A stretch of 64,000 nucleotides of DNA, taken from positions 186,001-250,000 of the forward strand of contig NZ_CANLEA010000007.1 in the NCBI RefSeq assembly GCF_947489565.1. Direction: 5' to 3'. The position numbers were made by a program, and so were the translations under genes. The notes beneath the pieces are model-generated. The model had not been told where the DNA came from and searched no databases. It worked only from the letters and a program-made list of their open reading frames with translations. Below, one piece after another: positions 1-59,705 of this stretch. The DNA is from an uncultured Kordia sp. Lineage in GTDB: Bacteria > Bacteroidota > Bacteroidia > Flavobacteriales > Flavobacteriaceae. Each line of letters opens with the position of its first letter. The first letter of the stretch is position 1.

Positions 1-431
1 ACCAGCTTTTTGTTGACTTTCAAGAAAATATGTGGTTCTTGTTGCAACCCAACATCTGAGGTTGCATTATTCATATATACTTGCTGGTAAATCTTATTAA
101 TAGTTTTTAAAAAGCGATCAAAAGGAATCGGCTTTACCAAATAATCTAACACATTCAATTCAAAGCTTTTTACAGCATATTCTCTGTACGCAGTTGTGAT
201 GACAATAAGCGGCTTGTAGCTCAAGTTTTCTATAAACTTAAAACCCGTCATTTGCGGCATATTGATATCTAAAAAAATGACATCGATTTTTTCCTGTTCC
301 AAAATCGGATATGCCTTTAGCGGATTATTGAAGGTGGCAATGACCTCAACATGATCAAAATTCTTTAAATGATTTTCGATCACCTGAATCGCCAAATGTT
401 CATCATCTATTATAACGCACTTGATTTTCAT
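1..431 (-). CDS. LytT-type response regulator, partial (runs off the window start)
   Basis: Reading the minus strand from the ATG at 431 gives a receiver domain: an acidic pocket near the start (VIIDDEH), a phosphoacceptor stretch VIFLDINMP, the conserved ITTAY and a KPI-type lysine. The end of the linker is present; the output domain lies outside the window. The start codon overlaps the stop of the histidine kinase by four bases (ATGA), so the two are translationally coupled. From the LytS-type partner and the family's usual architecture I infer a C-terminal LytTR DNA-binding domain, which cannot be seen here. The targets are unknown; the SusC/SusD locus is the nearest divergent gene set. 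Confidence 0.85.
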   Translation of the reverse strand, partial: MKIKCVIIDDEHLAIQVIENHLKNFDHVEVIATFNNPLKAYPILEQEKIDVIFLDINMPQMTGFKFIENLSYKPLIVITTAYREYAVKSFELNVLDYLVKPIPFDRFLKTINKIYQQVYMNNATSDVGLQQEPHIFLKVNKKL

Positions 432-1702: not shown

Positions 1703-4700
1703 ATGAAACAAAATTTACGAGTGTTATTTTTGTTTTCTTTTTTTCTATTATCTGTGCAATATTCTTTTGCTCAGGAAAAGGAGATTACTGGTATAGTGAC
1801 ATCTAAATCAGATGGTATACCGCTTCCAGGAGCTAATATATCAGTAGAAGGAACAACAAAAGGAGCACAGACAGATTTCGATGGAAAATACTCTATCAAA
1901 GCATCTCCTGGAGATGTATTAACATTCTCTTTTATAGGAATGACTACAAAGCAAGTAACTGTTGCTGATTCAAATGTCATTAACGTTCAACTTGAAGATA
2001 ACCAAGAAGCATTAGATGCAGTGATTGTGACGGCACTTGGTATCAAAAAAGAAAGAAAAACACTTACGTATGCCGCACAAGATGTTAAAGGAGACGATTT
2101 AACTAGAGTAAAACAAACAAATCCTATCAATAGTTTATCGGGAAAGTCTGCCGGATTAGCTATTACAAGAAGTTCCTCGGGTGTAGGAGGATCTACCAAA
2201 GTAGTATTAAGAGGAAATTCTTCTACAACAAATAATGACCCTTTATATGTTATTGATGGTGTGCCAATGTTAAACAATGGTAATGGCGCACAACCAGGAG
2301 GCGATATCTTTGGAAGTCAAATAGGAAACAGAGATGGAGGAGATATTACTTCTTTAATAAATCCTGATGATGTAGAAAGCATTTCTATATTAAAAGGAGC
2401 TTCTGCCGCAGCTTTATATGGTAGTCAAGGAGCTAATGGTGTGATACTTATTACCACAAAAACCGGAAAAGAAGGAAGGGTAAAAGTAAACTTCAGTTCA
2501 ACCTTAACCATTGATAATGTTGTTTCATTGCCAGAATTACAAACAGAATACCAATCGTTATCTGTAGGAGAACCAATTGCTGAAAACGGAAGAGTTACCG
2601 ATCCTAAATCTTGGGGAGCAAGAGCTAGTGGTTTATCAAATACTGTAGATGACTTTTTTGAAACAGGAGTAACTTCCATACAATCAATCTCTTTAAGTGC
2701 TGGAAATAGTAAAGCACAAACGTATTTTTCATTTGCAAATACAAATGCAGGTGGAGTAATGCCTGGAAATAGATTGAATAGAAATGTACTTAATCTAAGA
2801 GAAACAGCAAGTTTCTTAGATGATAAAATTCAAGTTTCTGCAAATATTAATTTATCCGATCAAAGAATTTGGAATAGACCAACGAACGGATTATACTCAA
2901 ATCCTTTAACTGGATTGTATTTAAATCCAGTTGGAATTGATTTAAATAATTACAGAGATCAATTTGAATACTTCAATACCGCAACCAACATGATGGATCA
3001 GTATGCAACTTCTTTTGATGAAAATATTCAACAAAATCCATATTGGTTAATCAATCGTAATCCAAGTAAAGATATTGCACAAAGAGTGTTAGCAAGTGTG
3101 AGTATAAAATATCAAATCAGTGAAAACTTCTCACTTCAATCAAGAGGAAGTTTTGACAAATCGTTCTTTACGTTTGACAAAAGAATGTATGCAGGTAGCG
3201 ATTTAACTTTTGTACCTGACACAGGAAGGTATATTCTTGAAAAAACAGAAAATACGCAACAGTATGTTGACTTAATTGCAAACTATACAAAGCAATTCTC
3301 AGAAGATTTTGATTTTGGATTCACCTTCGGAACTAGTCTTACGAAATATTCTCTTGGTGATCGAGTAACTTTAGACTCAGGTACCAATGGAGGTTTGCGT
3401 TTTCCAAACGAATTTACCATTGCCAACTTTGTACAAACAAACAATATATCGCAAAGTGTAACCAACAGAGAAGTACAATCGGTTTTCGGAACTGCTAACT
3501 TCGGATACAAAGACATGTTATACTTAGACATTACAGGTAGAACAGACTGGTCTTCTACATTAGTAAATACAGCATCAAGTTCTTTCTTTTACCCTTCTGT
3601 AGGTCTTACAGGTATTTTATCAAACATGTTTGAAATGCCTGAATCTATCTCTTTTGCAAAAATTAGAGCTTCCTATGCAGAAGTTGGTAAAGACATTCCA
3701 GCCTATGCAACAATTCCTTTAAGAACTATTAGCAATACAGGTTCTGCCGACCAAGCAACATTTGCGCCTAGAGAAGGAGAAACCTTGGAACCAGAAAATC
3801 AAAAATCGTTCGAAATTGGAACAGAGTGGAGATTCTTTGGGAACAGATTAGGAATCGATTTCACGTATTATAGTTCAACCACAGAAAATCAAATATTCTT
3901 TATTGCTGCACAACCAAACATTCAAGGATATACACAAAACATTGTGAATGCAGGTAAAATTACAAACAAAGGTGTTGAATTAATCATTAATGCAAAACCT
4001 TATGTGAGTGATAATTTTAATTGGAACACAGCATTAAACTATGCTTCAAACAAAAACAAAGTGGTATCGGTGCATCCATCACTAGATAATGGAGAAGCTA
4101 TCATCACAGGACCTGGAGTAAATGGATACGGATATTCCTTGGTAGAAGGAGAAGACTTTGGTAGTATCCGTGCGCGTTCTGTAGTTAGAAATGCTGCAGG
4201 ATTACCAGTAGTTACAGACGATGGAAGTGGAAACCTAACCATTGAAGCTACCGACTTTGAAACAGTGGCACATGCACAACCTGATTTTACCTTAGGATGG
4301 AGCAATACATTTACATACAAAGACTTTACATTAAACTTCTTGATCGATGGAAAATTTGGAGGAGATGTTGTAAGTGTTACGGAAGCTGTAAATGATTTCT
4401 ACGGAGTATCACAAGCAAGTGCTGATGCTAGAAATAACAATGGAGGAATGATAAATGTAGTTGATACCAATGGAAATCAACTTCAAATGACAGCACAAGA
4501 TTATTATACAAAAACAGGTGGTAGAGCAGGTTTATTAGGAGAATATGTATACGATGCAACAAACGTTAGCTTACGAGAATTATCTATAGGTTACAGACTT
4601 CCTATAAAAAGCGATTACTTTGAATCTATCAGTTTGTCAGTAATTGCAAACAATCTTTTCTTTATATACAAAGATGCTCCATTTGATCCAAATATTGCTT

Positions 4701-22500: not shown

Positions 22501-22779
22501 TTAGCTTGCATTCACAGAAGCATTTAACATCTTTGCAACTCCAATAGCATCTGCAATAGTATCCATACTATAAATTTGCATAACTCCTTGCGTTGTAGCT
22601 GTTTGTGCTAAAATGTTTTGTTGACTTTGTGCATTTACTGCATTTTCAAACATTAATCCTGTTGAATGTGCAGCCGATTGATACACATTTCCTAAAGCCA
22701 TTGCAGGAGCTTCTCCTACGACTTTTACATTTGATTGTGTTACTGCATCAGTAATTTGTGGATTTACATGATTTGACAT
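22501..22779 (-). CDS. RebB-family R-body structural protein homologue
   Basis: A 92-residue protein with the RebB (PF11747-type) core: VNPQITDAVTQSNVKVVGEA then PAMALGNVYQ, followed by an alanine- and asparagine-rich helical tail ending in MLNASVNAS. RebB proteins form the proteinaceous ribbons called R-bodies (refractile bodies), which extend on acidification and rupture membranes. This is the last gene of a five-gene minus-strand set whose first gene is another RebB homologue. Its tail shares QTATTQGV..IYS.DT with the third RebB copy at 46.4 kb. Family assignment is strong; whether R-bodies form is not shown. Confidence 0.88.
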   Translation of the reverse strand: MSNHVNPQITDAVTQSNVKVVGEAPAMALGNVYQSAAHSTGLMFENAVNAQSQQNILAQTATTQGVMQIYSMDTIADAIGVAKMLNASVNAS

Positions 22780-24360: not shown

Positions 24361-24579
24361 TTATTTCAACATTTTAATAGCATCAGCTATAATTACTGCA
24401 TTTAGCTGATTTAAATTCTGCTGATTGGAAACTGAATTTTGCATAGCCATACCATTCGCATGTGTTGCCATTTGATATAAATTACTCAATGCCTGTGCTG
24501 GCGATTCACCAAGTACGGTAACATTGGTTTGTGTTACTGCATCTGTGACTTGTCCGTTTACTGTAGAGTTGTCTGCCAT
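24361..24579 (-). CDS. RebB-family R-body protein homologue, short form
   Basis: A 72-residue protein and first gene of the operon. The RebB core is clear: VNGQVTDAVTQTNVTVLGES then PAQALSNLYQ, followed by THANGMAMQNSV and a short helical end (VIIADAIKMLK). It lacks the extended tail of the other two copies. Known R-body loci usually encode several RebA/RebB-like paralogues of different length, so paired long and short forms here are consistent with a working ribbon-forming set. Confidence 0.86.
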   Translation of the reverse strand: MADNSTVNGQVTDAVTQTNVTVLGESPAQALSNLYQMATHANGMAMQNSVSNQQNLNQLNAVIIADAIKMLK

Positions 24580-26362: not shown

Positions 26363-27106
26363 TTACCTGAAAAACAATCCATCGCGTAAAAATGCAGCTT
26401 TATAGCGCTCACTAAAAGGAACTTTATGATTGGTTTCTAAAATAATTAAGTTGTCTTCTACGTAGAGTTCTTTTATTTTTTTAATGTTAACCAAATAGTT
26501 ACGATGTGTTTGTTTAAAATCTGGATTCGCCAATATATTCTTAATTTTTGATAACGAAAGCTTGATAAGATAATCTCCTGCATCACAAATTAAACTACAA
26601 TATTTCTCACTCACTTCAATATAATTGATGGTAGATACATTTACTTTCACAACTTTCCGTTGTTTTTTAACAAACAAAAACTCAGGCGCAATCACAGCAT
26701 TGTTCTCCGTAACACTCATAGTGTTTTCTTGACCATGATGCATTTCAATGGCCAATTCAATCGTATACAGCAATTCCATTTCATTAAATGGTTTTAACAG
26801 ATATGAAAAGGGTTTGGTATACTTGGCTTTTTCAAAAATAATACGGCTATGTATGCTTGTTAAAAAAACAAATGGAATCCTAATTCCTTCAGTATCTAAT
26901 TGTTGCGCAAAATCAATTCCTTCTGGCTTTCCGTGAATCATAATATCAAGAACCATAATATCAAACTTTTTATCTTTCAAAGCTTCATGCGCTTCTTGTC
27001 TATTAAGAACATGTGTAACAATATATTCATTTTTTTCAAGGATATCTATAAGTACGTCAGCATCATCTTGTTGATCTTCTAAGACTAAAATGTGTAAGTT
27101 TTCCAT
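26363..27106 (-). CDS. REC-LytTR response regulator, orphan
   Basis: A 247-residue regulator. The receiver domain has ILVLEDQQDDAD and phosphoacceptor Asp54 (IMVLDIMIHG), then FVFLTS and the KPF-type lysine. The C-terminal LytTR DNA-binding domain begins about residue 150 (FLFVKKQRKVVKV, INYIEVSEKYCSL, TGHRNYLVNI-type TQTHRNYLVNI). It is a close paralogue of the regulator at 38550-39296. Its kinase gene, expected just upstream, survives only as a fragment at 27112-27430, so it now lacks its own sensor. It converges with the GH25 gene with a two-base gap. Confidence 0.92.
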   Translation of the reverse strand: MENLHILVLEDQQDDADVLIDILEKNEYIVTHVLNRQEAHEALKDKKFDIMVLDIMIHGKPEGIDFAQQLDTEGIRIPFVFLTSIHSRIIFEKAKYTKPFSYLLKPFNEMELLYTIELAIEMHHGQENTMSVTENNAVIAPEFLFVKKQRKVVKVNVSTINYIEVSEKYCSLICDAGDYLIKLSLSKIKNILANPDFKQTHRNYLVNIKKIKELYVEDNLIILETNHKVPFSERYKAAFLRDGLFFR

Positions 27107-36991: not shown

Positions 36992-37645
36992 TTACACAAG
37001 AGTCCATTTTTGATTTTCATATTTACAAGATAACTCGTTTATCTGTGTCAAGTTTAAATCAATATAATTAGATGTAGAGTCACTAATCATTGTGCTTGTT
37101 TCAATATTTTGTTGAAACCAAACTCTCACTTCTTCTTTAGGAGTTAATACTACTTCTCCAGTAACAATTGAGTTTTCAGCAACATAAATTGGTGTCATCG
37201 TTGTGCGTCCGTCAATACCTGTAGAAAGTTGATTTACTCCAGGATGAATAGAGCCATATTCGTTCACCATCGTCATACTAGTGTCAGGTCCGCCACTTAC
37301 TTGTGCTTCTAAGATTCCAAATTCATTTAAGGTACATTGATTTCCTAAATTACAAGGCTGAATATTTGTAGTAGCTCTTACTTCTACTCCGCTTTGGAAT
37401 GTATTGGTTCCAAATAATTCATATTGTGGTGTCCAAGAAAAACTGTTAGTGAATAAGTAGTCACTGTATGATTCCCAAACCACATTAAAACTGTCGCCTA
37501 CTTTTTTAGCAAAACATAATTTGTATCCAGATTTTTTTAAGTTTTCTAAGTCATCTAAAGCAACTTCTACATTTACTACTTTTTGTGATGCAACTAAAGC
37601 TTCGTGTAACTGTAAAGCAGCTACTTGTGATATATTTTTACTCAT
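36992..37645 (-). CDS. Uncharacterised protein, paralogue A
   Basis: A 217-residue soluble protein, family unknown to me. It shares the whole length from residue ~25 with its neighbour at 37894: YKLCFAKKVGDSFNVVWESY, TTNIQPCNLGNQCTL, GIDGRTTMTPIYVAE, VRVWFQQNIETSTMI and a YIDLNLTQINELSC ending. It is mostly beta, with cysteines in PCNLGNQC. There is no signal peptide. A repeat array resembling LytTR sites lies upstream at 37752-37804. Confidence 0.75.
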   Translation of the reverse strand: MSKNISQVAALQLHEALVASQKVVNVEVALDDLENLKKSGYKLCFAKKVGDSFNVVWESYSDYLFTNSFSWTPQYELFGTNTFQSGVEVRATTNIQPCNLGNQCTLNEFGILEAQVSGGPDTSMTMVNEYGSIHPGVNQLSTGIDGRTTMTPIYVAENSIVTGEVVLTPKEEVRVWFQQNIETSTMISDSTSNYIDLNLTQINELSCKYENQKWTLV

Positions 37646-37893: not shown

Positions 37894-38508
37894 TTAGCTA
37901 GTTTTCCAATCGCCATTTTCAAAAACACAGGTTACTTCATTAGTGGATGTTAAATCTACATCAATATAATATGAAGAAGCTAGTCTTTGTTGAAATGGAG
38001 GTGGCAGAATCATTGTGCTAGTTTCAATGTCTTGTTGAAACCAAACTCTGACAATGTCTTTTGGATTGAGTTCATCGTAGCCTTTTATGATGGCTTTTTC
38101 AGAGACATAAATAGGTGTACTGATGGTTTTTCCATCTATTCCTGTAGAAGATTGTTGTACGCCAGAATGAATTGTATCGTAATCATTCTTTAATGTTAAA
38201 CTGTTATTAATTCCGCCACTTGTTTGTGGATCAAGAACACCTGCTTCAGTAAGAGTACAATAATTCCCTAAATCACAAGGTTGAATATTAGTAGATACAA
38301 CTACAAGTTCATTTTCTTCAAACGTATTTGAACAAAATAATTCATAGTTTGGTTCGTATGAGAAATGATTAGTATTCAAGAAATTGTCATAGGATTGCCA
38401 AACCACATTAAAACTATCGTTGAGTTTTTTTGCAAAGCATAAATTGTACTTAGCATCTTTTAGTTGTATTAAATCTTCTGTAGTAATTTCTACGATTACG
38501 GTTTTCAT
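37894..38508 (-). CDS. Uncharacterised protein, paralogue B
   Basis: A 204-residue paralogue of the preceding protein, roughly half identical by eye: YNLCFAKKLNDSFNVVWQSY, STNIQPCDLGNYCTL, GIDGKTISTPIYVSE, VRVWFQQDIETSTMI. It lacks the N-terminal 25 residues of paralogue A. It lies 41 bases downstream of the LytTR regulator gene, so it may be co-transcribed with the kinase and regulator. Function unknown. The divergence of the pair with strict retention of the cysteine motif argues for selection. Confidence 0.75.
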   Translation of the reverse strand: MKTVIVEITTEDLIQLKDAKYNLCFAKKLNDSFNVVWQSYDNFLNTNHFSYEPNYELFCSNTFEENELVVVSTNIQPCDLGNYCTLTEAGVLDPQTSGGINNSLTLKNDYDTIHSGVQQSSTGIDGKTISTPIYVSEKAIIKGYDELNPKDIVRVWFQQDIETSTMILPPPFQQRLASSYYIDVDLTSTNEVTCVFENGDWKTS

Positions 38509-38549: not shown

Positions 38550-39296
38550 TTATTTAAGCGTTCGAAACTTATTGATGATGTCCTTGTATTTCCCGCTTAA
38601 AGTTGCACTGTGATTTCCTTCCAAAAGAATTAAATTGTCCTGCGGAATGATTTCTTCTATTTTGCGAATGTTTACGATAAAATTACGATGCGTACGGTAG
38701 AATTTTGTAGTGTCTAAAAGGTCTAAAATTTTGACAAGCGAGATGAGAATGACAAACTTTTCTTTTTCCGTAATAATGTTGCAATACTTTTCTTCTACTT
38801 CAATTAAAATGATATCATCTACATTTACTTTTTTGAGAGCTTTTCCTTTTTTAATGAATAAGTTGTCATCGCTAATGATGGTGTTTTCATCTTCAGCAGA
38901 AAAAGAATCTTCCTGACCATAAAATTTTTCAATTGTATTTTCAATGGCGTAAATCAATTCTAGTTCATTAAAAGGTTTTACAATATAACCGTAGGGTTTG
39001 GTAAGCTTTGCGCGATTAAAGATTTCACGACTTGTAGCGCTGGTTAAAAAGATAAAAGGTTTTAATCCATTGGGTTGCGCATCAATAAATTCGGCAAAGG
39101 CAATACCATCTGGGCGACCATTGAGGAAAATATCAATAATGGCAATATCAATATTTTGTGCATAAAAAATATCAACGGCTTCTCTAAAAGAGGTTGCTGT
39201 ACCAGAAATAGTGAAGTTATTTTCTTTTAATATTTCAACTAATTTAGTGCTCTGTTCGGGTTTATCTTCAACAACTAATACATTAATATTTTCCAT
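38550..39296 (-). CDS. REC-LytTR response regulator
   Basis: A 248-residue regulator. The receiver has VLVVEDKPEQS and phosphoacceptor Asp55 (IAIIDIFLNG), FIFLTS and KPF. The LytTR domain starts near residue 148 (LFIKKGKALKKV, IILIEVEEKYCNI, YRTHRNFIVNIRK). Its start shares one base with the stop of the TPR kinase gene (TAATG), so the pair is coupled. It is the only regulator among two kinases and four tagged genes and is the likely reader of the 21-bp repeat arrays. Paralogue of the regulator at 26363. Confidence 0.93.
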   Translation of the reverse strand: MENINVLVVEDKPEQSTKLVEILKENNFTISGTATSFREAVDIFYAQNIDIAIIDIFLNGRPDGIAFAEFIDAQPNGLKPFIFLTSATSREIFNRAKLTKPYGYIVKPFNELELIYAIENTIEKFYGQEDSFSAEDENTIISDDNLFIKKGKALKKVNVDDIILIEVEEKYCNIITEKEKFVILISLVKILDLLDTTKFYRTHRNFIVNIRKIEEIIPQDNLILLEGNHSATLSGKYKDIINKFRTLK

Positions 39297-41035
39297 TAGA
39301 TAAGTTTTTTAGGGAGTGAAATTATCATTTTAGTGCCTTTTCCTAATTCACTTTCTATTGAAAAAGTACCATTATTTTTTTTGATCATTGATTTACAGAG
39401 CTGCATGCCTAATCCTGTTCCTATGATGTTTTCGTGTTGCTTTTTTGCGAGTAAGGTAGTGTCTTTAAGCAATTCTTGACGTGTGTTTGTATCCATGCCA
39501 ATTCCGGTATCTTCAACAATTAAGTGACAAAAATTTGTCGCATCGTTTTTTGTGTAAATACGTATTTGATCCTTTGAATGAGAAAACTTAATAGCATTGT
39601 CAATTAAATTCCTCAAAATAATTTTTAACGATTCTTTATCTGCATAGATGGTTTCGTTTTTTGGAACCGTATTTTCAAAGGAAATTTCTTTGTCAGCTAA
39701 AATGGCGGTGTAATTGTATGCAACATGTTCTACGGTATTGTAAAGCTGCAGGTTTGTCATTCGAAAAAAGGTTTGATCTGTTTGTAATAATGCCCAGTTT
39801 AGTAAATTATCTAGCAATGTATACGCATTATTGACAATAGCACTATTATTTTGCAATAAATCGTTGACTTTCGAACGTTTTTCTGATTCAAGTGTTTTTA
39901 TTAATTTTTTATTACTCGTTTTGATGGCGTTTACGGAGGAACGTAAATCGTGACTCACAATGGAAAATAGTTTATCTTTTGTGGTATTCAACGCATCTAA
40001 ATTTTCTTTTTGTTGATGAATGATTTTATTACGCTTTACTTTTGCTCTATAGAAATAGAGACTGACACCTAACATAACAAATAAGATAATGGCTGAGTAT
40101 AAAAAGGTATCTCTTTCGGCTGCTTCAATTTCCTTTTCAGCTTCAAGTTTTACAATTCTTTTTTGTTCTTTTTCAACAGCTATTTTCTCTTCAGCTTTCG
40201 CAGTAGCATAAATTTTATTTTGATCGTTCAATGAATCGGTCCACTGTTCGTATTCTTTTCTGTATTGCAGTGCTTTCTTATAATCTTTTCTGTTTTCTTC
40301 TACTACTGCCATATTTTCGGTTGTGGTCTGTAGCGTACTAAAATCGTTAGTCGTTTTAGCTAGTGCATAGGCTTTTTGAAAAAGCGGAATTGCTAGATTG
40401 TCTTTATATAGATCATAGTATAGTGTAGCAAGGTTTCCGTACGAACCAATGAGCAATACAGTATCTTTTTGTTCCTCTTGATATCTAACACTTTCTAATA
40501 AATAAGGTTTGGCTTTCTCATATTTTTGTAAATGAAGATAACATATACCTATATTATCTTTAATATGTTCCATATTAATCGTTTGACTATGTAGTTTTGG
40601 TATTTTTTCTACTTCTTTATAATAAGAAAGAGCTTTTTCAAATAAGTACGATTCTAATGCAATAGAACCTAATTTTGCTTTTACATTGGGTAATAATTGA
40701 AAATTCTTTGAAATTTTTAAAAATTCATCTTCCGCTTTTTTAAATAGCTTTTTTTCGAAAAAACTAATACCTCTAAAAAAATGACAATAATCAATTAGTT
40801 TTTCATCTTTTGCTGATGTACTCAATACTTTTGTCGTAAGTACTAGTGTAGAATCCCAATGATTATTAAAAAAGTATGATTGCGCTTTTTTAAAATCCGC
40901 ATTTGTAGTAAAAGAAGTAGTGTTATGCTGTATGGATTTGTTTAATGCACTAGATTCTGATTTCTCTTGCGATAAAAGAAATGAAGGAATACATATAAAT
41001 AAAAAAATCAATGTAGTTTTTAGTTTCTTATGCAT
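39296..41035 (-). CDS. TPR-containing sensor histidine kinase, copy 1
   Basis: A 579-residue kinase. Signal peptide (residues 1-22), a periplasmic TPR array (~45-290; e.g. AQSYFFNNHWDSTLVLTTKV, GSYGNLATLYYDLYKDN), one membrane helix (~311-329), then the histidine box with His362 (LFSIVSHDLRSSVNAI). The ATPase domain has NLIDNAIKF, VEDTGIGMD and GTGLGMQLC. TPR sensors of this form detect envelope signals, perhaps a protein or peptide. Same architecture and length as copy 2 at 42915. Coupled to the LytTR regulator. Confidence 0.93.
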   Translation of the reverse strand: MHKKLKTTLIFLFICIPSFLLSQEKSESSALNKSIQHNTTSFTTNADFKKAQSYFFNNHWDSTLVLTTKVLSTSAKDEKLIDYCHFFRGISFFEKKLFKKAEDEFLKISKNFQLLPNVKAKLGSIALESYLFEKALSYYKEVEKIPKLHSQTINMEHIKDNIGICYLHLQKYEKAKPYLLESVRYQEEQKDTVLLIGSYGNLATLYYDLYKDNLAIPLFQKAYALAKTTNDFSTLQTTTENMAVVEENRKDYKKALQYRKEYEQWTDSLNDQNKIYATAKAEEKIAVEKEQKRIVKLEAEKEIEAAERDTFLYSAIILFVMLGVSLYFYRAKVKRNKIIHQQKENLDALNTTKDKLFSIVSHDLRSSVNAIKTSNKKLIKTLESEKRSKVNDLLQNNSAIVNNAYTLLDNLLNWALLQTDQTFFRMTNLQLYNTVEHVAYNYTAILADKEISFENTVPKNETIYADKESLKIILRNLIDNAIKFSHSKDQIRIYTKNDATNFCHLIVEDTGIGMDTNTRQELLKDTTLLAKKQHENIIGTGLGMQLCKSMIKKNNGTFSIESELGKGTKMIISLPKKLI

Positions 41036-41178: not shown

Positions 41179-41952
41179 TCAATTGCCCGTAGGTTTTACA
41201 GTAGTAACTGTTCCACGAGAAGCTTTTGGATCTACATCTATTACTGAAACCATCACATTTTCAATGTTATTAATATCAAGTGGTTGTTGAGATATTGTTT
41301 TAGTTTTTGAGTTAAAAGTAGCATATTCAATTTCTAAATTTTTTACAGTAAACTTATGCATTCGATAGGAGCCTCCTCTTTCTTTATCTTGGCGATTGAA
41401 GCATACGTAATAACTCAATTGAGATCTTCCACCAGGACCAATTGAGAAATTTTGATAGATGTCAAAATCATCTTTTGTCATCTCTTTAGCATAATTTTCA
41501 AAAAAGTAAATACTAGTATAAATATTTTTATCATCTCTAAGTGCTCCAATTGTAGGTTGAATTAAGATTTCACTATCAGATGCGGTCCTTATAAATTCGT
41601 AATACAATTTTTCATATTCCTGTGAAATTTCAGTATTTCCTTTTGTAAGTCCTAAAAAACTAATCATCATATCGACGATTTCGGTTCCATATTTTTGTAA
41701 AGTTCCATTAATTTCTGGATTACTATAATCATGTCCTTCTAAATAAGAGATTAATCCTGTAATTTGCTGCCTAGTAGCTTCTAAAAGGAGTTTATTGGGA
41801 TCAGGTATGTTTTTTATAAGTTTATGATTGTAATAGGTTGGGGCTAACTTTATACCTGGAATTTGATAATTAATGCCTTCAAGTTGCGTTATATCATTTT
41901 CAATTTCAGTTACTATTTTTTTGATTTCTTCTAATTTATCGTGTGTGCTCAT
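41179..41952 (-). CDS. C-terminally tagged protein 1 (DPKASRGTVTTVK)
   Basis: A 257-residue protein, family unknown. The first ~110 residues are helical (KLEEIKKIVTEIENDI, TGLISYLEGHDYSN). The rest is beta-rich, with GPGGRSQLSYYVCF. It ends with DVDPKASRGTVTTVK and PTGN, the tag shared with three neighbours. There is no signal peptide, membrane helix or LPXTG-like anchor. It follows tagged protein 2 by 76 bases and precedes TPR kinase copy 1. Confidence 0.78.
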   Translation of the reverse strand: MSTHDKLEEIKKIVTEIENDITQLEGINYQIPGIKLAPTYYNHKLIKNIPDPNKLLLEATRQQITGLISYLEGHDYSNPEINGTLQKYGTEIVDMMISFLGLTKGNTEISQEYEKLYYEFIRTASDSEILIQPTIGALRDDKNIYTSIYFFENYAKEMTKDDFDIYQNFSIGPGGRSQLSYYVCFNRQDKERGGSYRMHKFTVKNLEIEYATFNSKTKTISQQPLDINNIENVMVSVIDVDPKASRGTVTTVKPTGN

Positions 41953-41966
41953 AGCTATAATTATTT

Positions 41967-42007
41967 AGTTTACTTCCTACTCTCTTAGAGGCTTTTCGGA
42001 ATTCGCC
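41967..42007 (-). repeat. Conserved 5'-leader element, copy A
   Basis: Read on the plus strand, it contains TTCCTACTCTCTTAGAGGC then TTTTCGGAATTCGCC. It lies 15-55 bases upstream of tagged gene 1. It matches copies B and C in the same position before tagged genes 2 and 3. Confidence 0.7.
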
Positions 42008-42028
42008 TTTAGATACATAATTTTAACA

Positions 42029-42625
42029 TTAATTACTTGTTGGTTTTACTGTAGTAACCGTTCCTCTAGAAGTTCTAGGGTCATTTTCTATGATAAATGC
42101 TTGTATATGTTCAATAGTATTTGGGTTTGTTAAATGAGGAATGGATCCCGCAGGAAATTCTATATAAAAAGTATTATCCCAAAACTCCAGTTGACCTGAA
42201 CGATTATTACTTTCATCAAAGAATACATAAATGTTTAATTGAGGAGTTCCGTATTGACTTAACGTAAGTTGATACGTGAAATTTCGATGGCTGATGTTTA
42301 TTAAAGGATTTTTAGTTTTGGCAATTAAAGACAAGCCAAATGTAATTCTTCCATTTACTGTAGAAAAAGCAATAGGAGTGGGAGATAATAGATGATCTAT
42401 TGCTCTGTCAATATGAGGCATTTTATTAATCAGTGATGAATTATGACCTACAGATTCATAAAATGGTTGCCCCAACGGAGCTTGTCCTTTAATTAGTATT
42501 TCTCCTTTACCAAAATCTTCTAAAAGTGGGTCTATAATTTTTTCTATTTCTTGCATTGTTGACTTCGTTACTGCAAGATTAGTTAGTTGACCAATTACCG
42601 AATGATCTGAATATTCTGTATGCAT
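42029..42625 (-). CDS. C-terminally tagged protein 2 (DPRTSRGTVTTVK)
   Basis: A 198-residue protein of unknown family. A helical N-terminus (KSTMQEIEKIIDPLLEDFGK) leads to a beta-rich region with QYGTPQLNIYVFF, aligned by eye with GGRSQLSYYVCF in tagged protein 1. The C-terminus is NDPRTSRGTVTTVKPTSN. No export signal. It heads the first cassette, downstream of a 14-bp inverted repeat and a three-repeat LytTR-like array. Confidence 0.78.
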   Translation of the reverse strand: MHTEYSDHSVIGQLTNLAVTKSTMQEIEKIIDPLLEDFGKGEILIKGQAPLGQPFYESVGHNSSLINKMPHIDRAIDHLLSPTPIAFSTVNGRITFGLSLIAKTKNPLINISHRNFTYQLTLSQYGTPQLNIYVFFDESNNRSGQLEFWDNTFYIEFPAGSIPHLTNPNTIEHIQAFIIENDPRTSRGTVTTVKPTSN

Positions 42626-42638
42626 ACTTTAAGTGTTT

Positions 42639-42678
42639 AGTTGATTTCCTACTCTTTTAAGGCTTTTCAGATTCCGCC
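42639..42678 (-). repeat. Conserved 5'-leader element, copy B
   Basis: The plus strand reads TTTCCTACTCTTTTAAGGC then TTTTCAGATTCCGCC, 14-53 bases upstream of tagged gene 2. The 18-base part GGCTTTTCAGATTCCGCC is identical to copy C. Confidence 0.75.
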
Positions 42679-42692
42679 GTTATTTTAATTTT

Positions 42693-42732
42693 GTATAGAA
42701 TTATTAGCTTTATTAGTTTAATAATTCTATAC
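42693..42732. promoter_or_regulatory. 14-bp perfect inverted repeat upstream of cassette 1
   Basis: GTATAGAATTATTA and TAATAATTCTATAC are separated by 12 bases. The outer GTATAGAATT/AATTCTATAC arms recur upstream of the other cassette at 45893-45930. It could be an RNA hairpin in the leader, a terminator of the upstream kinase gene, or an operator. Confidence 0.7.
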
Positions 42733-42769
42733 AAAGAAAAAGATTAAATCGTTGATTTTCTGAATGAAA

Positions 42770-42822
42770 AGAACGAGAGTTCACTTTTTTGGAATAAAAC
42801 TCAAAAATTTGGGTATGGAATT
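42770..42822. promoter_or_regulatory. Three 21-bp-phased direct repeats upstream of cassette 1
   Basis: AGAACGAGAGT at 42770, GGAATAAAACT at 42791 and GGTATGGAATT at 42812 are exactly 21 bases apart. They match the stronger array at 45968. LytTR regulators typically bind direct repeats about two helical turns apart. Confidence 0.6.
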
Positions 42823-42914
42823 TTTTGGAGGTAGAAATACAAACTTTTATAAGCTGAAAAATCACCAAATAGACAATAAAATGTATTTTAAAAAGTAAAA
42901 GAGAAAAGTAATAG

Positions 42915-44657
42915 TTATGATGGCATCATTTTAGGCAACGAAACCATCATTTTTGTGCCTTTTCCCAATTCGCTTTCTATAGAAAAAGTACCGTTGTTTT
43001 TTTTGATCATAGATTTGCAGAGTTGCATACCTAATCCTGTACCGATGATGTCTTCATGTTGTTTTTTGGCAAGTAGTGTAGTGTCTTTGAGCAATTCTAA
43101 ACGTGTAGTTTCATTCATGCCAATGCCTGTATCTTCTATAATTAACTGACAAAAATCGGGATCATCATTATGAGTGTATACCGTAATCTTACCGTTTGGA
43201 TTTGTAAACTTAATAGCATTGTCAATCAGGTTTCGTAAAATGATTTTAAGCGATTCTTGATCGGCATAAACCACCTCTTTTTTAGAAATGGTATTTTCAA
43301 ACTTAAGTTCTTTATCTGTTAAAATAGCTTTGTAGTTATACGCAACATGATCTATAATTGAAGTCAGGCGAAGTTTGGATATTTCAAAACGTGTTTGTTT
43401 GGTTTGCAGCAATGCCCAGTTCAATAAATTATCCAATAAATTATAAGCGCCATTTACAATAGAACTATTATTCTGTAATAGATTGCCAACTTTATGAAAA
43501 TCTTTAGTTTCTATCGTCGTCATTAACTTTTTATTACTTGTTTTAATAGCATTCACTGAAGAACGTAAATCGTGACTCACAATAGAAAACAGTTTGTCTT
43601 TTGTGGCATTCAATTCATCTAAATCTTCCTTTTGCGTATTAATGATCTTATTGCGTTTTACTTTTTCACGATACAAATACATGCTTACACCAAACATGAC
43701 AAATAAAATGATCGCAGAATATAAATACGTATCCAACTCTGCTTGTTTCGCTTTATTTTCAGCTTTTAGTACTGCAACTTCTTTTTGTTTGATTTCAACA
43801 GTAGCTTTTTGTTCAGCTTGTCCTAATGCATATAGTTTCTCCTGATCGTTTATTGAATCGGTCCATATCATATATTCTTTATAATATTGAATAGATTTCG
43901 GGTAATTTTTACGATGTTCTTCAACGACAGCCATATTATTAGCCGTATGTTGCTTTAATAAAAAATCGTTGGTAGTTTTTGCCAAACCATATGCTTTTTC
44001 AAAATAAGGAATTGCTTCAGCATCTTTATACTGCTCATAATACAACGAAGCTAAATCACCATATGCGCCAACCAGTTCAAGAGTATCTTTATCTTTTTCG
44101 TGCAATCGTACACTTTCGTTAAGATATTTTTCAGCTTCCGGAAACTGTTTTAAATGCAAATAGCATAAGCCAATATTATGTTCAATGTTTTTCTTTTTAA
44201 TGCCAAGAAGTTCTTGCTCAGAGAAGGTTTCAATCTTTTTAAAGTAGCCAATCGCTTTTGTGAATTGTTCTTGTTCCAAAGCTATAGAACCCAAATACAT
44301 TAACAGGTTATTGTGAAATTCAAAATCGTCAGCAGTTTTTGCAAATTCTTTAATGGCTTCTTTGAATACTTTTTTTTCGTAAAAACTAATTCCTCTTATA
44401 AAATGACAATAATCTGTAAGTTCACTTTTTGTAGTTTTTGTACTCAATTCTTTCATGGTATAAACTAATGTAGAATCCCATTCTTTTTCGACGAAAAATG
44501 ATTTGGCTTTTGCGAAATACGGATTGGTATCAAATTTCGTACTCTTATCCAGTACTTGTTGTGTGAAGACATTGCTTTGTGCTGCTTTTTGAGAAAAAAG
44601 TAGGACAGGAGCTAATATAAATAGTATTAGTAAATACTTTTTTTCTGCAAAATACAT
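42915..44657 (-). CDS. TPR-containing sensor histidine kinase, copy 2
   Basis: A 580-residue kinase. I use the ATG at 44657 (MYFAEKKYLLILFILAPVLL) rather than 44720, because it gives a normal signal peptide and a length matching copy 1. Periplasmic TPR repeats follow (GAYGDLASLYYEQYKDAEAI), then a membrane helix, the histidine box (LFSIVSHDLRSSVNAIKTSN) and ATPase motifs (NLIDNAIKF, EDTGIGMNE, GTGLGMQLC). It closely resembles copy 1, especially in the kinase core. No response regulator adjoins it, so it probably signals to the LytTR regulator at 38550. Confidence 0.92.
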   Translation of the reverse strand: MYFAEKKYLLILFILAPVLLFSQKAAQSNVFTQQVLDKSTKFDTNPYFAKAKSFFVEKEWDSTLVYTMKELSTKTTKSELTDYCHFIRGISFYEKKVFKEAIKEFAKTADDFEFHNNLLMYLGSIALEQEQFTKAIGYFKKIETFSEQELLGIKKKNIEHNIGLCYLHLKQFPEAEKYLNESVRLHEKDKDTLELVGAYGDLASLYYEQYKDAEAIPYFEKAYGLAKTTNDFLLKQHTANNMAVVEEHRKNYPKSIQYYKEYMIWTDSINDQEKLYALGQAEQKATVEIKQKEVAVLKAENKAKQAELDTYLYSAIILFVMFGVSMYLYREKVKRNKIINTQKEDLDELNATKDKLFSIVSHDLRSSVNAIKTSNKKLMTTIETKDFHKVGNLLQNNSSIVNGAYNLLDNLLNWALLQTKQTRFEISKLRLTSIIDHVAYNYKAILTDKELKFENTISKKEVVYADQESLKIILRNLIDNAIKFTNPNGKITVYTHNDDPDFCQLIIEDTGIGMNETTRLELLKDTTLLAKKQHEDIIGTGLGMQLCKSMIKKNNGTFSIESELGKGTKMMVSLPKMMPS

Positions 44658-44758
44658 GTGATATTTTTTTACAATGTAGTTAAATATCAAAACAAAAAAA
44701 AGCAGCGATGTTACAATCACTGCTTTTAAAGGACAAGTTTCATGTCAAATTAATTTTA

Positions 44759-45268
44759 TTACATAGGTCTTTTTACGGTAGTTATTGTTCCTCTAGATGT
44801 TTTTGGATCTATATTTTTGAAGAAAGTTTGTGTACAGTCTATTAATATCGCGCTTCCATCTCTATAAACGGGATCTGTTTTAAAAGAGATTAATATCGGA
44901 ATGTATTTATTGGTAGTTGCTTCATTAGCATAATAACTAATGTGTAAATTTAATTGATTTTTTCCTCCTTCCGAATATACAAATTGTTGTGTTACTGCAA
45001 ATTTGCTTGGATCAATTTCTTTTACTGGAAGTAATACCATGGCGTTTACATTTATGATTCCATTACCTGTTTCATGATACGCCATTACACAAGGTGGAAA
45101 TAAGTCATTTGTTTCATATTCTGAAAGACTTATTAATACGCGATCAAATTGTCCAGTTTGTTCACCTTCTCCTGCAATCAAAATAGGAGATGAAACAGTA
45201 ATTTCGGTGGTTAAGAGTTTTCCTGGGGTTTCTACTAAGTTATGTTCTAAAGTGGTTTGATGATTCAT
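44759..45268 (-). CDS. C-terminally tagged protein 3 (DPKTSRGTITTVK)
   Basis: A 169-residue beta-rich protein of unknown family. GGKNQLNLHISYY aligns by eye with the equivalent segment of tagged proteins 1 and 2. It ends NIDPKTSRGTITTVKRPM. No export signal or membrane helix. It lies between tagged protein 4 and TPR kinase copy 2, the same order as in the other cassette. Confidence 0.78.
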   Translation of the reverse strand: MNHQTTLEHNLVETPGKLLTTEITVSSPILIAGEGEQTGQFDRVLISLSEYETNDLFPPCVMAYHETGNGIINVNAMVLLPVKEIDPSKFAVTQQFVYSEGGKNQLNLHISYYANEATTNKYIPILISFKTDPVYRDGSAILIDCTQTFFKNIDPKTSRGTITTVKRPM

Positions 45269-45289
45269 AATAATTAGTTTTAAGGTTTT

Positions 45290-45322
45290 AGTTCTTACTC
45301 ATAAGGCTTTTCAGATTCCGCC
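45290..45322 (-). repeat. Conserved 5'-leader element, copy C
   Basis: The plus strand reads CTTACTCATAAGGCTTTTC then AGATTCCGCC, 22-54 bases upstream of tagged gene 3. Same position relative to the start codon as copies A and B. Confidence 0.72.
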
Positions 45323-45331
45323 ATTTTTTAC

Positions 45332-45922
45332 TTATGTTGGCCTTTTTACTGTAGTAATAGTTCCTCGTGAAGTTTTTGGATTACTGCTTTGAAGGTAGGT
45401 AATTATAGAGGTTACTTTTTCTGAATCTGGGTATTCTACAGTATACTTTATTCTGTAAGGAATAAATTCGTAGCGAGATTTTAAAGGAATGAGAGGTTCG
45501 ACAGGCTTTGGAAAAATGATATCAATTTTAAGCGCACCTCTTGGATCTAAAGTATCCTCTTCTTCAATAGCAACTTTATCAAAGACATAATCGGAATGTA
45601 CATAAATTAAAACCTCTAGTTGTATCGTTTTGCTTTTGCCGTCATATTCAGCTTCTACTTCTAAAGGCGCAATTTCTTCTATCATTGAATCTGGAGGAAC
45701 TACGATGACTTCATGATTGAAGGCCAAGCCACTAGTTGAACGTTCTCTGGGTTGAAGATCTTCTATTTTTGCATATCTAGGATCTTTCGTCGATTTTGTT
45801 TTTTGTTGGTCATTTTCTGTGATTAATGAAATATGTTCCAATGTTGCATTTTTAGTGTTCATAATTTTTAGGTATTGATTCGTAATAATTGTGTATAGAA
45901 TTGCTTTTCTATAAGTTAGCAA
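45332..45922 (-). CDS. C-terminally tagged protein 4 (NPKTSRGTITTVK)
   Basis: A 196-residue beta-rich protein of unknown family. The start at 45922 is uncertain: the ATG at 45862 (MNTKNATLEHISL) is 20 codons in and also plausible, because tagged proteins 2 and 3 start with similarly short leaders. The C-terminus is SNPKTSRGTITTVKRPT, nearly the same as protein 3. First gene of cassette 2, preceded by an inverted repeat and the best LytTR-like array. Confidence 0.75.
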   Translation of the reverse strand: MLTYRKAILYTIITNQYLKIMNTKNATLEHISLITENDQQKTKSTKDPRYAKIEDLQPRERSTSGLAFNHEVIVVPPDSMIEEIAPLEVEAEYDGKSKTIQLEVLIYVHSDYVFDKVAIEEEDTLDPRGALKIDIIFPKPVEPLIPLKSRYEFIPYRIKYTVEYPDSEKVTSIITYLQSSNPKTSRGTITTVKRPT

Positions 45923-46145: not shown

Positions 46146-46310
46146 ATGAAGAAAAAAAGTATCAAAAACTTACAACTCAACAAGAAGTCCGTTGCAAAAT
46201 TTCAAGACAATGTAAAAGGAGGACACATTACAACAACATTGATAACTGTTACTTGTTTGATACAGTGTTATACCTTACAAGATGAATCTTGGTGTTGGGA
46301 AGCAAAGTAG
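46146..46310 (+). CDS. GG-leader natural-product precursor-like peptide
   Basis: A 54-residue peptide. The leader MKKKSIKNLQLNKKSVAKF ends in a double glycine (VKGG, residues 23-26) and has the LKxLxLNKKxIxxL pattern of Bacteroidota precursor peptides. The 28-residue putative core, HITTTLITVTCLIQ then CYTLQDESWCWEAK, is rich in Thr and has three Cys, which would suit dehydration and thioether or disulfide formation. No modifying enzyme is adjacent. A strong terminator follows at once, so it is a single-gene transcript. Confidence 0.75.
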   Translation: MKKKSIKNLQLNKKSVAKFQDNVKGGHITTTLITVTCLIQCYTLQDESWCWEAK

Positions 46311-46363: not shown

Positions 46364-46666
46364 TTATTCACCGTCATTCAAAATTTTACTAGTTGCATTA
46401 GCTGAACTAGCAGTATCAATATCATATATTGTTTCAACACCTTGTGTAGTGGCTGCTTGTGAAGTTGGATTGGAAGAAGTTTGATTCGTAGTTGCATTGT
46501 GTGCTGCATTTGCTAAAGCTTGCGAAGTTACTTCCATAAGATTTCCCATAGCTATTGCTGGTGCATCGCCAAGAACTTTTGTGTTTGCTTGTGTAACTGA
46601 ATCTGTAATTTGTGAATTTACAGCTGTTGGAAAACTTTCGGGTTGTGGTTTTGTTTTTTTTGACAT
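46364..46666 (-). CDS. RebB-family R-body protein homologue, third copy
   Basis: A 100-residue protein, taking the ATG at 46666 (MSKKTKPQPE); an in-frame ATG at 46699 would add 11 residues not seen in other RebB homologues. The core is VNSQITDSVTQANTKVLGDA then PAIAMGNLM. The tail has QAATTQGVETIYDIDT, shared with the copy at 22501. It stands apart from the main R-body-like operon, 66 bases after the hydroxylase gene, and may be co-transcribed with it. Confidence 0.85.
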   Translation of the reverse strand: MSKKTKPQPESFPTAVNSQITDSVTQANTKVLGDAPAIAMGNLMEVTSQALANAAHNATTNQTSSNPTSQAATTQGVETIYDIDTASSANATSKILNDGE

Positions 46667-46732
46667 GATATGTGGTTTTATTTCGAATAAATCATTCAAT
46701 TACAATTTATGGTGTACCGTATTTATGTAAAA

Positions 46733-48331: not shown

Positions 48332-48490
48332 TTAGCAATATGCACTGCCTTCCGAAGCGCACAAACGCTCGCCTCTTGATTTTCTACAAAGTAAACGTGT
48401 ACGGAAAAGTCCTCCTCTAACTTCATTTAAATTTAAGTTCGAAATGGACTTTTTGTTTAGTTCTAATGATTTTAAACTTCTTCTTTTCAT
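48332..48490 (-). CDS. GG-leader precursor-like peptide, trio member 3
   Basis: A 52-residue peptide, the copy nearest the TonB receptor. Leader MKRRSLKSLELNKKSISNL then NLNEVRGG; core LFRTRLLCRKSRGERLCASE then GSAYC with three Cys and five Arg. It is more divergent than members 1 and 2 and begins 106 bases after the receptor stop, so it is probably closest to the ancestral arrangement. Confidence 0.72.
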   Translation of the reverse strand: MKRRSLKSLELNKKSISNLNLNEVRGGLFRTRLLCRKSRGERLCASEGSAYC

Positions 48491-59013: not shown

Positions 59014-59271
59014 CTAGAGCGGACACCAAAAAGAATCTACACAATGTCCTAAAGAGCAAGTTCCATATAAGCTGTTGTCTGGACAGTCTAAAACATCTGC
59101 TGTTAAAGGAAGAGGTTCTGGAGTATCATCTTTTGGGCAACCACCGTAAAGAAATGATCTCAATATAGTCTCACAATAACCACCAGTCTCTGCACCACCA
59201 GAAATAGTATTTTGAATGTTTGAAATTGATTCTTTGTTAAGTCTCAAATTTTTTAAGCTTCTTTTTTTCAT
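59014..59271 (-). CDS. GG-leader precursor-like peptide, 59-kb pair, member 1
   Basis: An 85-residue peptide. The leader MKKRSLKNLRLNKESISNI is followed by QNTISGG. The core is longer than in the trio and cysteine-rich: GYCETILRSFLYGGCPKDDT, DVLDCPDNSLYGTCSLGHC and DSFWC. Seven Cys suggest disulfides or thioethers. The leader matches the 46-48 kb peptides (LKxLxLNKxSISN...GG). No modification enzyme is adjacent; it has its own leader region duplicated with member 2. Confidence 0.75.
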   Translation of the reverse strand: MKKRSLKNLRLNKESISNIQNTISGGAETGGYCETILRSFLYGGCPKDDTPEPLPLTADVLDCPDNSLYGTCSLGHCVDSFWCPL

Positions 59272-59495: not shown

Positions 59496-59705
59496 CTAAC
59501 GTGGTCCTGGACATCCAACAGCATCTGTTATTGGAGAAGGAACAGGGTCTTTAGTTGGTTCTGGAGCTGGACATTGCAAAATTAGGCTGACAGTATTACA
59601 TCCGCCTGTTTTTGATTCAGGGAAAAGTCCTCCAGTAATACAATATTCAAAATTTGAAATTGCTTGCTTGTTTAAGGCAAGATTCTTTAAGCTTCTTTTT
59701 TTCAT
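59496..59705 (-). CDS. GG-leader precursor-like peptide, 59-kb pair, member 2
   Basis: A 69-residue peptide. The leader is MKKRSLKNLALNKQAISNF, then EYCITGG. The core, LFPESKTGGCNTVSLILQCP then APEPTKDPVPSPITDAVGCP, has three Cys and many Pro. It is 434 bases from member 1 start to start, with ~150 bp of conserved upstream sequence, so a tandem duplication. Cores are unrelated apart from Cys-Pro endings. Confidence 0.75.
   Translation of the reverse strand: MKKRSLKNLALNKQAISNFEYCITGGLFPESKTGGCNTVSLILQCPAPEPTKDPVPSPITDAVGCPGPR

Follow-up and report, generated by a model that had tools for sequence, protein, structure and literature searches.

A conserved C-terminal tag, very probably the cognate ligand of a neighbouring TPR sensor kinase in an apparently undescribed cassette of Bacteroidota

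Sensor kinases can be fed by separate proteins, and the partners in LuxP-LuxQ and ChvE-VirA carry signal peptides and dock by folded surfaces. The ligands of the tetratricopeptide repeat (TPR) sensor kinases of Bacteroidota, to our knowledge, have not been established. In other TPR systems peptides are the ligands: asparagine residues are described as holding the peptide backbone in ComR and Rap, and repeat positions 2, 5, 6, 9, 12 and 13 bind the peptide in HOP (PMC1261162). Here we describe a stretch of 64,000 nucleotides, the window, from an uncultured Kordia sp. of the Flavobacteriaceae (NCBI RefSeq assembly GCF_947489565.1, contig NZ_CANLEA010000007.1, positions 186,001 to 250,000 of the forward strand), in which four proteins with a shared C-terminal motif, the tag, are encoded beside two TPR sensor histidine kinases, HK1 and HK2 (Table 1). 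We conclude that this tag very probably serves the TPR sensor kinase as its cognate ligand, in a cassette that appears to be undescribed.

The preliminary description of the window, made from the sequence alone, had drawn attention to positions 41179-45922, where four open reading frames (ORFs), all on the minus strand, were said to end with [DN]P[KR][TA]SRGT[VI]TTVK plus 2-4 residues. The ORFs and their C-termini, which read DPKASRGTVTTVKPTGN, DPRTSRGTVTTVKPTSN, DPKTSRGTITTVKRPM and NPKTSRGTITTVKRPT for proteins 1, 2, 3 and 4 in turn, bear this out. The core of the motif, which is unlike EEVD, the peptide of Hsp70 and Hsp90, stands as described; the final Lys is not part of that core, since Gln, Lys and Arg occupy this position in 36, 25 and 12 of 102 tagged proteins. 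Among the same 102, Arg and Gly of the core are present in every member and Thr in 100, in a set whose search demanded R-G-[TV] near the C-terminus together with a TPR-kinase downstream (within 2300 or 900 bases), and which is therefore no independent test of pairing. In the order of the minus strand, the run of genes consists of tagged genes 4 and 3, HK2, tagged genes 2 and 1, HK1 and a LytTR regulator, HK2 being the proposed receptor for tags 3 and 4 and HK1 that for tags 1 and 2. HK1 and HK2 with the adjoining LytTR regulator are a two-component system, given their HATPase domain (HATPase_c, E 7e-19 in HK1 and 4e-19 in HK2) and the adjacent response regulator (Response_reg and LytTR in Pfam); a SHDLR box is conserved across 34 aligned kinases.

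The tag is found well beyond the window. A degenerate DNA pattern of the motif has five sites in the 6.42 Mb of its own genome, against none for a reversed control pattern. The exact pattern matched only this genome and one other among 397 genomes of the family, and a profile of seven members, more sensitive than the pattern, detected tagged proteins in 8 of the 11 genomes of the genus. When one genome per species was scanned across 84,980 GTDB species, with no kinase required, the pattern occurred at 58 loci, 47 of which carry it in frame at the C-terminus of a protein and 2-25 residues short of the end. These 47 all bear names of Bacteroidota, including Flavobacteriaceae, Crocinitomicaceae, Fluviicola, Chitinophaga and other Chitinophagales. 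The remaining 11 comprise eight loci without an in-frame motif, two short frames of 57 and 64 codons (L054 and L077), and an internal occurrence in a Thr-rich frame of 510 codons (L067). The proposal in the preliminary description depended on the tag being neither absent from other genomes nor an internal part of a known domain. The search places it in many further genomes, and its proteins have no match above the cut-off in Pfam (11 tagged proteins, best weak matches E 0.015 and 0.11) or NCBIfam (seven); seven searched with PADLOC likewise matched no model. A phage or plasmid origin is not supported by a scan of viral contigs, in which the pattern had no match, or by a plasmid search with one tagged protein, whose matches lay only at E of about 3. 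The strings SRGTVTTVK and SRGTITTVK were found in no paper.

Comparison of genomic neighbourhoods, as proposed in the preliminary description, revealed a TPR-kinase downstream of the tagged genes at nearly every locus. In 48 tag loci (the 47 and the window), neighbour clustering found a TPR histidine kinase in 46 and a homologue of the regulator in 33, several of the loci lacking the latter being cut by locus ends, and no third family in more than 6. The homologous kinase lies downstream on the same strand in 46 of the 47 pattern-found loci, 45 at first and then L081 (the same locus as L010/L130), where it begins 80 bases downstream once longer sequence is read; the sole unpaired locus, L087, stops 142 bases past the tag. 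Sometimes the kinase comes only after a second tagged gene, and the gap has a median of 83 bases (95 kinases). Two loci, L079 and L093, are irregular in that the kinase frame behind the tag seems to be broken or to have a misplaced start.

The pairing was also approached from the kinase side, with a TPR-domain profile built from 34 tag-adjacent kinases and no tag required. At E<=1e-20 this profile gave 43 matches in 30 of the 397 family genomes, so that the system is patchy; 42 of them were inspected, the weak match G229:C1 being left out. With a cut at E 3.2e-57, set afterwards in the gap before E 1e-32, 36 of 37 matches have an upstream tagged ORF by the loosest criterion, RG[TV] near the C-terminus, some of these tags being degenerate, such as RGVVTTV (L105) and EPTRGTVVMG (L119). 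The weaker match in the genome of the window (L125, E 1e-32) follows an ORF with RRGTK, and the four weakest inspected matches, L120-L123, have no upstream tag. In a second genome set, 16 of 16 additional kinases have a tagged ORF upstream, which brings the strong matches to 52 of 53 overall; the loci of this reverse test and of the pattern scan overlap in part (for example L095/L039 and L138/L055). Since the pairing holds in both directions, the tagged gene and the TPR-kinase act in that sense as one unit.

This pairing bears on a sorting function, in which the tag would direct its protein to a secretion machine or a compartment and the kinase neighbourhood would be incidental. A short, conserved, C-terminal and apparently disordered element on unlike bodies is what such a function would call for. 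However, no tagged protein was seen away from a TPR-kinase at loci with a readable downstream side, and a sorting tag would leave unexplained both the tails that follow the cassette and the charge swap with the kinase, which are described below. Because tagged genes are seen only beside TPR-kinases, sorting is disfavoured and seems quite improbable.

The residues that follow the core, the tail, differ from cassette to cassette. There are six cassettes with more than one tagged protein (two or three), and within each of them the tails after TTV agree: KRPT/KRPM, KPTGN/KPTSN, QTHNQS/QTHNSN..., KNASGG/KNASGE, TQPT in three proteins, and RR/RR. A tail prefix of 2-5 residues is shared by all eight within-cassette pairs, and at least 3 residues are shared in 32 of 3733 pairs between cassettes; for 21 Kordia tags, the observed agreement was reached in none of 20,000 shuffles. 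The bodies are mostly far less alike: five of the eight pairs have a body similarity below 0.1 of the self-score and three are related (0.18, 0.28 and 0.62). The nearest body relative of window protein 1, a protein of genome G400 (0.52), has a different tail, which matches its own cassette. In L043, two tags with a fragment of a TPR kinase between them (2283-2828, minus strand) were treated as two cassettes, and their tails agree in the first residue alone; the fragment apparently marks a decayed cassette.

Agreement of tails within cassettes could also be left behind by gene conversion or by recent tandem duplication of gene ends, the shared tail being functionless, and the pair in L083 does have closely related bodies. 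Yet 60 of 112 codon pairs for shared identical residues are different, where 69 would be expected if they were independent, and the motif persists in different families of Bacteroidota. The preliminary description had read the wobble-position differences among the tag codons as a sign of selection and not of recent copying, and these counts support it: with synonymous codons nearly randomised, the tails are kept alike by selection on the protein. The codon divergence refutes gene conversion in its simple form, and the explanation as a whole is highly improbable.

The tagged proteins had been described as having little else in common. Their bodies are indeed divergent, but they are not unrelated, most belonging to one fast-evolving family: BLASTP at E<=0.001 links 39 of 63 bodies, including three of the four window proteins, and clusters of bodies without a BLASTP link to each other bear the same tag. 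Complete tagged proteins have 129-339 residues, of which tag and tail take up 14-27, or 37 in one case. A profile of the tagged proteins had no match among PDB sequences, and the one structural model, that of window protein 2, had no significant match among PDB folds (best E 0.25). In this model, which is of modest reliability because its mean predicted local distance difference test (pLDDT) score is 70, a beta-rich domain is followed by the tag as a coil past the last strand.

If the kinase reads the tag, residues of the two should vary together. Kinases covering more than 85% of the TPR profile were aligned to it, with the register taken from the conserved Ala20, and mutual information was computed between each tag position and each variable TPR column, for 69 and later 83 pairs. 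The concave positions 2, 5, 6, 9, 12 and 13 had been fixed before the covariation was computed; they are the peptide-binding positions of HOP (PMC1261162). Variable tag offsets -3..11 prefer these positions with p=1.9e-4 and register rank 1 of 34 in the 69 pairs, and with p=1.4e-4 and rank 1 in the 83; in the 83, the published hypervariable set gave p=0.0013, also with rank 1. Body positions -20..-6 and -35..-21 have no preference for the groove (p 0.64-0.79; 0.64 and 0.69, ranks 20 and 23 of 34, in the 69 pairs). Taken singly, six of nine positions in the tag reach p<0.05 (-2, 3, 5, 7, 8 and 9, and not -3, 4 and 6), against none of the eight from -12 to -5. The signal persists when the kinases are thinned to <60% identity (39 pairs), at offsets 3, 7, 8 and 9, which were picked after the single-position results.

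The residue after RGT offers a specific instance. Cassettes with RGT-E have Lys or Arg at position 1 or 2 of TPR6 in 16 of 16 cases, against 18 of 76 others (Fisher 7e-9). Parsimony places 13 changes of the Glu state (gains or losses) on a tree of the TPR domains of 90 kinases, compared with 14.8 for shuffled labels, and the state therefore does not go back to one inherited event. There are three RGT-K cassettes; two of them have the charges swapped, with Glu at position 1 of TPR6, and the weak match L125 has Ser there. The 57 RGT-V cassettes mostly have Gln at position 1 (33 of them) and Asn at position 2 (38); in HK1 and HK2, which are paired with Val and Ile tags, Gln stands at residue 236, which is position 1 of TPR6. 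The groove itself is conserved, with R4.6 Asn in 83/91, R4.13 His in 88/91, R5.12 Tyr in 91/92, R6.6 Asn in 92/92 and R6.13 Asn in 88/93 kinases.

Gene pairing that is nearly strict, tails specific to each cassette, covariation of tag and groove, and the charge swap together make it probable that the conserved C-terminus docks as a linear peptide in the TPR groove of the neighbouring sensor kinase. The preliminary description had proposed a recognition signal for a secretion machine, protease, modifying enzyme or TPR sensor. A recognition signal is supported; the TPR sensor is singled out among these candidates, and the other three are not, because the kinase is encoded directly downstream and tag residues covary with its peptide groove. 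The TPR domain is predicted with a pLDDT of 89.5, and its Foldseek matches are TPR superhelices in general, designed ones first; LGN, kinesin light chain and Rap, in complex with a peptide or a partner protein, are among them. Binding of a peptide by the superhelix is suggested by the covariation. A TPR sensor of the same kind occurs fused to another kinase type in a metagenome-assembled genome of Chitinophagales (L066:5928-7610, plus strand), with a HDEVGAAL box and a receiver-domain neighbour, as judged by eye, and the TPR reader thus seems portable between kinase types.

In the mechanism that we propose, a cassette would comprise a TPR-kinase, often a LytTR regulator, and between one and three small proteins that are rich in beta-strands and end in a flexible tag, and the extracytoplasmic TPR superhelix of the kinase would read the tag. 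The near-invariant [DN]PxTSRGTxTTV would run along the conserved groove of TPRs 4-6 in a roughly antiparallel direction, and the variable tail (KPTxN, KRPx, TQPT, QTHN etc.) would point to the more variable TPRs 2-3, so that each kinase would prefer the proteins of its own cassette. Physical docking of this kind would activate the kinase or otherwise set its activity and, via the regulator, its output in transcription.

Several points weigh against such docking. The p-values of the covariation ignore phylogeny, and substituting the tag of the nearest relative gave p=0.009 for the tails (rank 2 of 34) and p=0.022 for all offsets (rank 4). Core offsets -3..6 alone gave p=0.015 with rank 5, and a set of outward positions on helix A gave p=0.0016 with rank 1 for the body control. 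The profile of the reverse test was trained on tag-adjacent kinases, and one strong match, L111, has no recognisable upstream tag, its upstream ORF ending in EPETVSPPFEGTVLTSGDGEVL. A further point concerns topology, which was judged by hydrophobicity only. A hydrophobic N-terminal stretch is present in 68 of 72 kinases (the 72 of 80 with >350 residues in view), and by eye a second hydrophobic stretch followed by basic residues lies between TPR and kinase; 85 of 87 tagged proteins have no hydrophobic N-terminus, and by eye neither of the two that do resembles a signal peptide. The inner membrane would therefore separate the two partners. Possible routes across are export by an unknown path with an adaptor role, export or lysis in the service of an intercellular signal, or a mistaken view of export; we lean slightly to the first of the three, since one kinase can have several different bodies with a single tail.

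As a sensory adaptor, a version of the docking proposal that we regard as tentative, the body, exported by an unknown route, would bind an outside cue and the tag would plug the protein into the kinase. This would work like a periplasmic binding protein with its sensor kinase, except that several bodies with one tail would give several inputs per kinase. Unlike bodies with one tail within a cassette fit such a role, and so do the beta-rich, fast-evolving character of the bodies and the same tag on BLASTP-unlinked clusters; against it, the bodies have no export signal and no likeness to a known domain in the Pfam and NCBIfam searches or in the comparison of one model and one profile with the PDB. 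Somewhat less probable is a protein pheromone or kin-lysis signal, a leaderless protein released by lysis or non-classical export and perhaps trimmed after the invariant Arg, whose tail, acting as a signal type, would be read by neighbours of the same type. Leaderless proteins facing an outward receptor, cassette-specific tails and the resemblance of the TPR model to structures that include Rap receptors are in its favour, and the Phr peptides QRGMI and ERGMT (PMC3601992) also contain Arg-Gly. Its difficulties are that the bodies are large and unlike known peptide precursors, and that the Rap-Phr peptide is re-imported and then read in the cytoplasm (PMC3601992). Broader, and more doubtful again, is the idea of a cell-to-cell or kin-damage signalling across Bacteroidota, in which leaderless proteins would be the signals, tails the lineage-specific passwords and outward TPR kinases the readers. 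Cell-to-cell reading of this kind, if true, would be the Gram-negative equivalent, built on a two-component system, of quorum sensing by peptides and TPR receptors.

Table 1. Features of the tagged-protein run in the window (coordinates in window positions, those of the genes with the stop codon)
Feature	Coordinates	Strand	Length	Details
Tagged protein 4	ORF 45332-45922; 45332..45862 from ATG	-	176 aa	tag NPKTSRGTITTV, tail KRPT; start taken as ATG at 45862
Tag 4 and tail codons	45335..45382	-		read from DNA
Leader core GGCGGAATCTGAAAAGCC, upstream of tagged gene 3	45305..45322	-		shared with DUF805b leaders; below Rfam gathering-score listing
Tagged protein 3	44759..45268	-	169 aa	tag DPKTSRGTITTV, tail KRPM
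Tag 3 and tail codons	44762..44809	-		read from DNA
TPR sensor histidine kinase HK2	42915..44657	-	580 aa from ATG	signal-peptide-like N-terminus, TPRs, transmembrane segment, HATPase_c; alternative GTG start 44720
DUF805b cis-regulatory RNA (RF02914), upstream of tagged gene 2	42646..42680	-		Rfam
Tagged protein 2	42029..42625	-	198 aa	tag DPRTSRGTVTTV, tail KPTSN
Tag 2 and tail codons	42032..42082	-		read from DNA
DUF805b cis-regulatory RNA (RF02914), upstream of tagged gene 1	41974..42009	-		Rfam
Tagged protein 1	41179..41952	-	257 aa	tag DPKASRGTVTTV, tail KPTGN
Tag 1 and tail codons	41182..41232	-		read from DNA
TPR sensor histidine kinase HK1	39296..41035	-	579 aa	signal-peptide-like N-terminus, TPRs, transmembrane segment, HATPase_c
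Response regulator, receiver and LytTR DNA-binding domain	38550..39296	-	248 aa	final gene of run

The leader core GGCGGAATCTGAAAAGCC is also present in L062, L068, L072, L088 and L093. Directly downstream of the LytTR regulator, two mutually similar proteins without a Pfam match are encoded (36992-37645 and 37894-38508, minus strand), which are possible targets of the signalling system. A second regulator, LytTR-like by eye (26363-27106, minus strand), adjoins a cluster of RebB genes, with no TPR-kinase among the nearby listed ORFs. RebB (R-body, 'killing trait') genes lie at 22501-22779, 24361-24579 and 46364-46699 on the minus strand, those at 24361 and 46364 matched by PF11747 and that at 22501 assigned by a shared motif only; four RebB-like ORFs accompany the Kordia algicida cassette (L038). 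A link between tags and R-bodies was rejected, RebB being near cassettes in 2 of 48 loci, the window and L038, with the other loci spanning at most 8 kb, so that a RebB gene farther away would be missed. An aspartyl/asparaginyl beta-hydroxylase-like protein (PF05118; 46733-47329, minus strand) is encoded near the cassette in the window and in L062, L064 and L072, all Kordia; its role as a modifier of the Asp or Asn of the tag was dropped, a homologue being near only these 4 of 48 loci. Short ORFs with lanthipeptide-like leaders occur at 46146-46310 (plus strand) and at 48332-48490, 59014-59271 and 59496-59705 (minus strand), the first two with NF038153 matches below the cut-off and the last two by eye only.

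The cassette apparently represents a new combination, namely the pairing of a tag with a TPR-kinase, a ligand on a leaderless protein and cassette-specific tails; recognition of peptides by TPRs and two-component signalling were already known, and searches of the literature on TPR kinases in Bacteroidetes and Flavobacterium showed no description of a tag-kinase pairing. For one subfamily of TPR-kinases the cassette provides a candidate ligand that is concrete and genetically encoded, with predictions of specificity at the level of residues.

Among known systems, substrates of type IX secretion differ from the tagged proteins, which by hydrophobicity have no N-terminal signal peptide and, in place of a folded C-terminal sorting domain, carry a short tag that is a coil in the single model and has no Pfam match. 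Other TPR kinases of Bacteroidota with LytTR regulators share the signal-peptide-like N-terminus, the TPRs, the transmembrane segment, the kinase and LytTR, but here a conserved set of groove residues goes with a tagged neighbour, and in the weaker matches L120-L123 the full set is missing, as is a tag. As in LuxP-LuxQ and ChvE-VirA, a separate protein would feed the sensor kinase, probably via its outer domain, except that the docking element proposed here is a C-terminal peptide and that the partner shows no signal peptide. HOP with Hsp70 and Hsp90 resembles the cassette in that a C-terminal linear peptide of a folded protein lies on the concave face of TPRs (PMC1261162), a placement that is proposed for the tag; here, by contrast, a variable tail follows the motif and the TPRs sit in a bacterial sensor kinase.

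A further likeness, in the mode of reading that is proposed here, is to the RRNPP family (Rap, NprR, PlcR, PrgX and Rgg/ComR). There, the product of a neighbouring gene supplies a short C-terminal peptide that is read in a TPR groove, receptor-peptide pairs have their own specificities, Asn residues line the groove, and Arg-Gly occurs in PhrF and PhrC. The RRNPP members, however, are cytoplasmic regulators or phosphatases of Gram-positive bacteria that respond to small secreted precursors, while here a membrane kinase would receive the ligand with its extracytoplasmic domain, and the ligand would belong to a leaderless protein of 129-339 residues. Three features by which that family is recognised, a cytoplasmic receptor, a helix-turn-helix (HTH) or Rap-type effector and a small secreted precursor, appear to be absent from the cassette, and the Pfam matches of HK1 and HK2 at E<=0.01 comprise TPR families, HATPase families and ANAPC3, with no HTH or Rap-type effector domain. 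If the docking proposed here is true, peptide-in-TPR signalling would extend from the cytoplasmic receptors of Gram-positive bacteria to outward-facing ones in Gram-negative bacteria.

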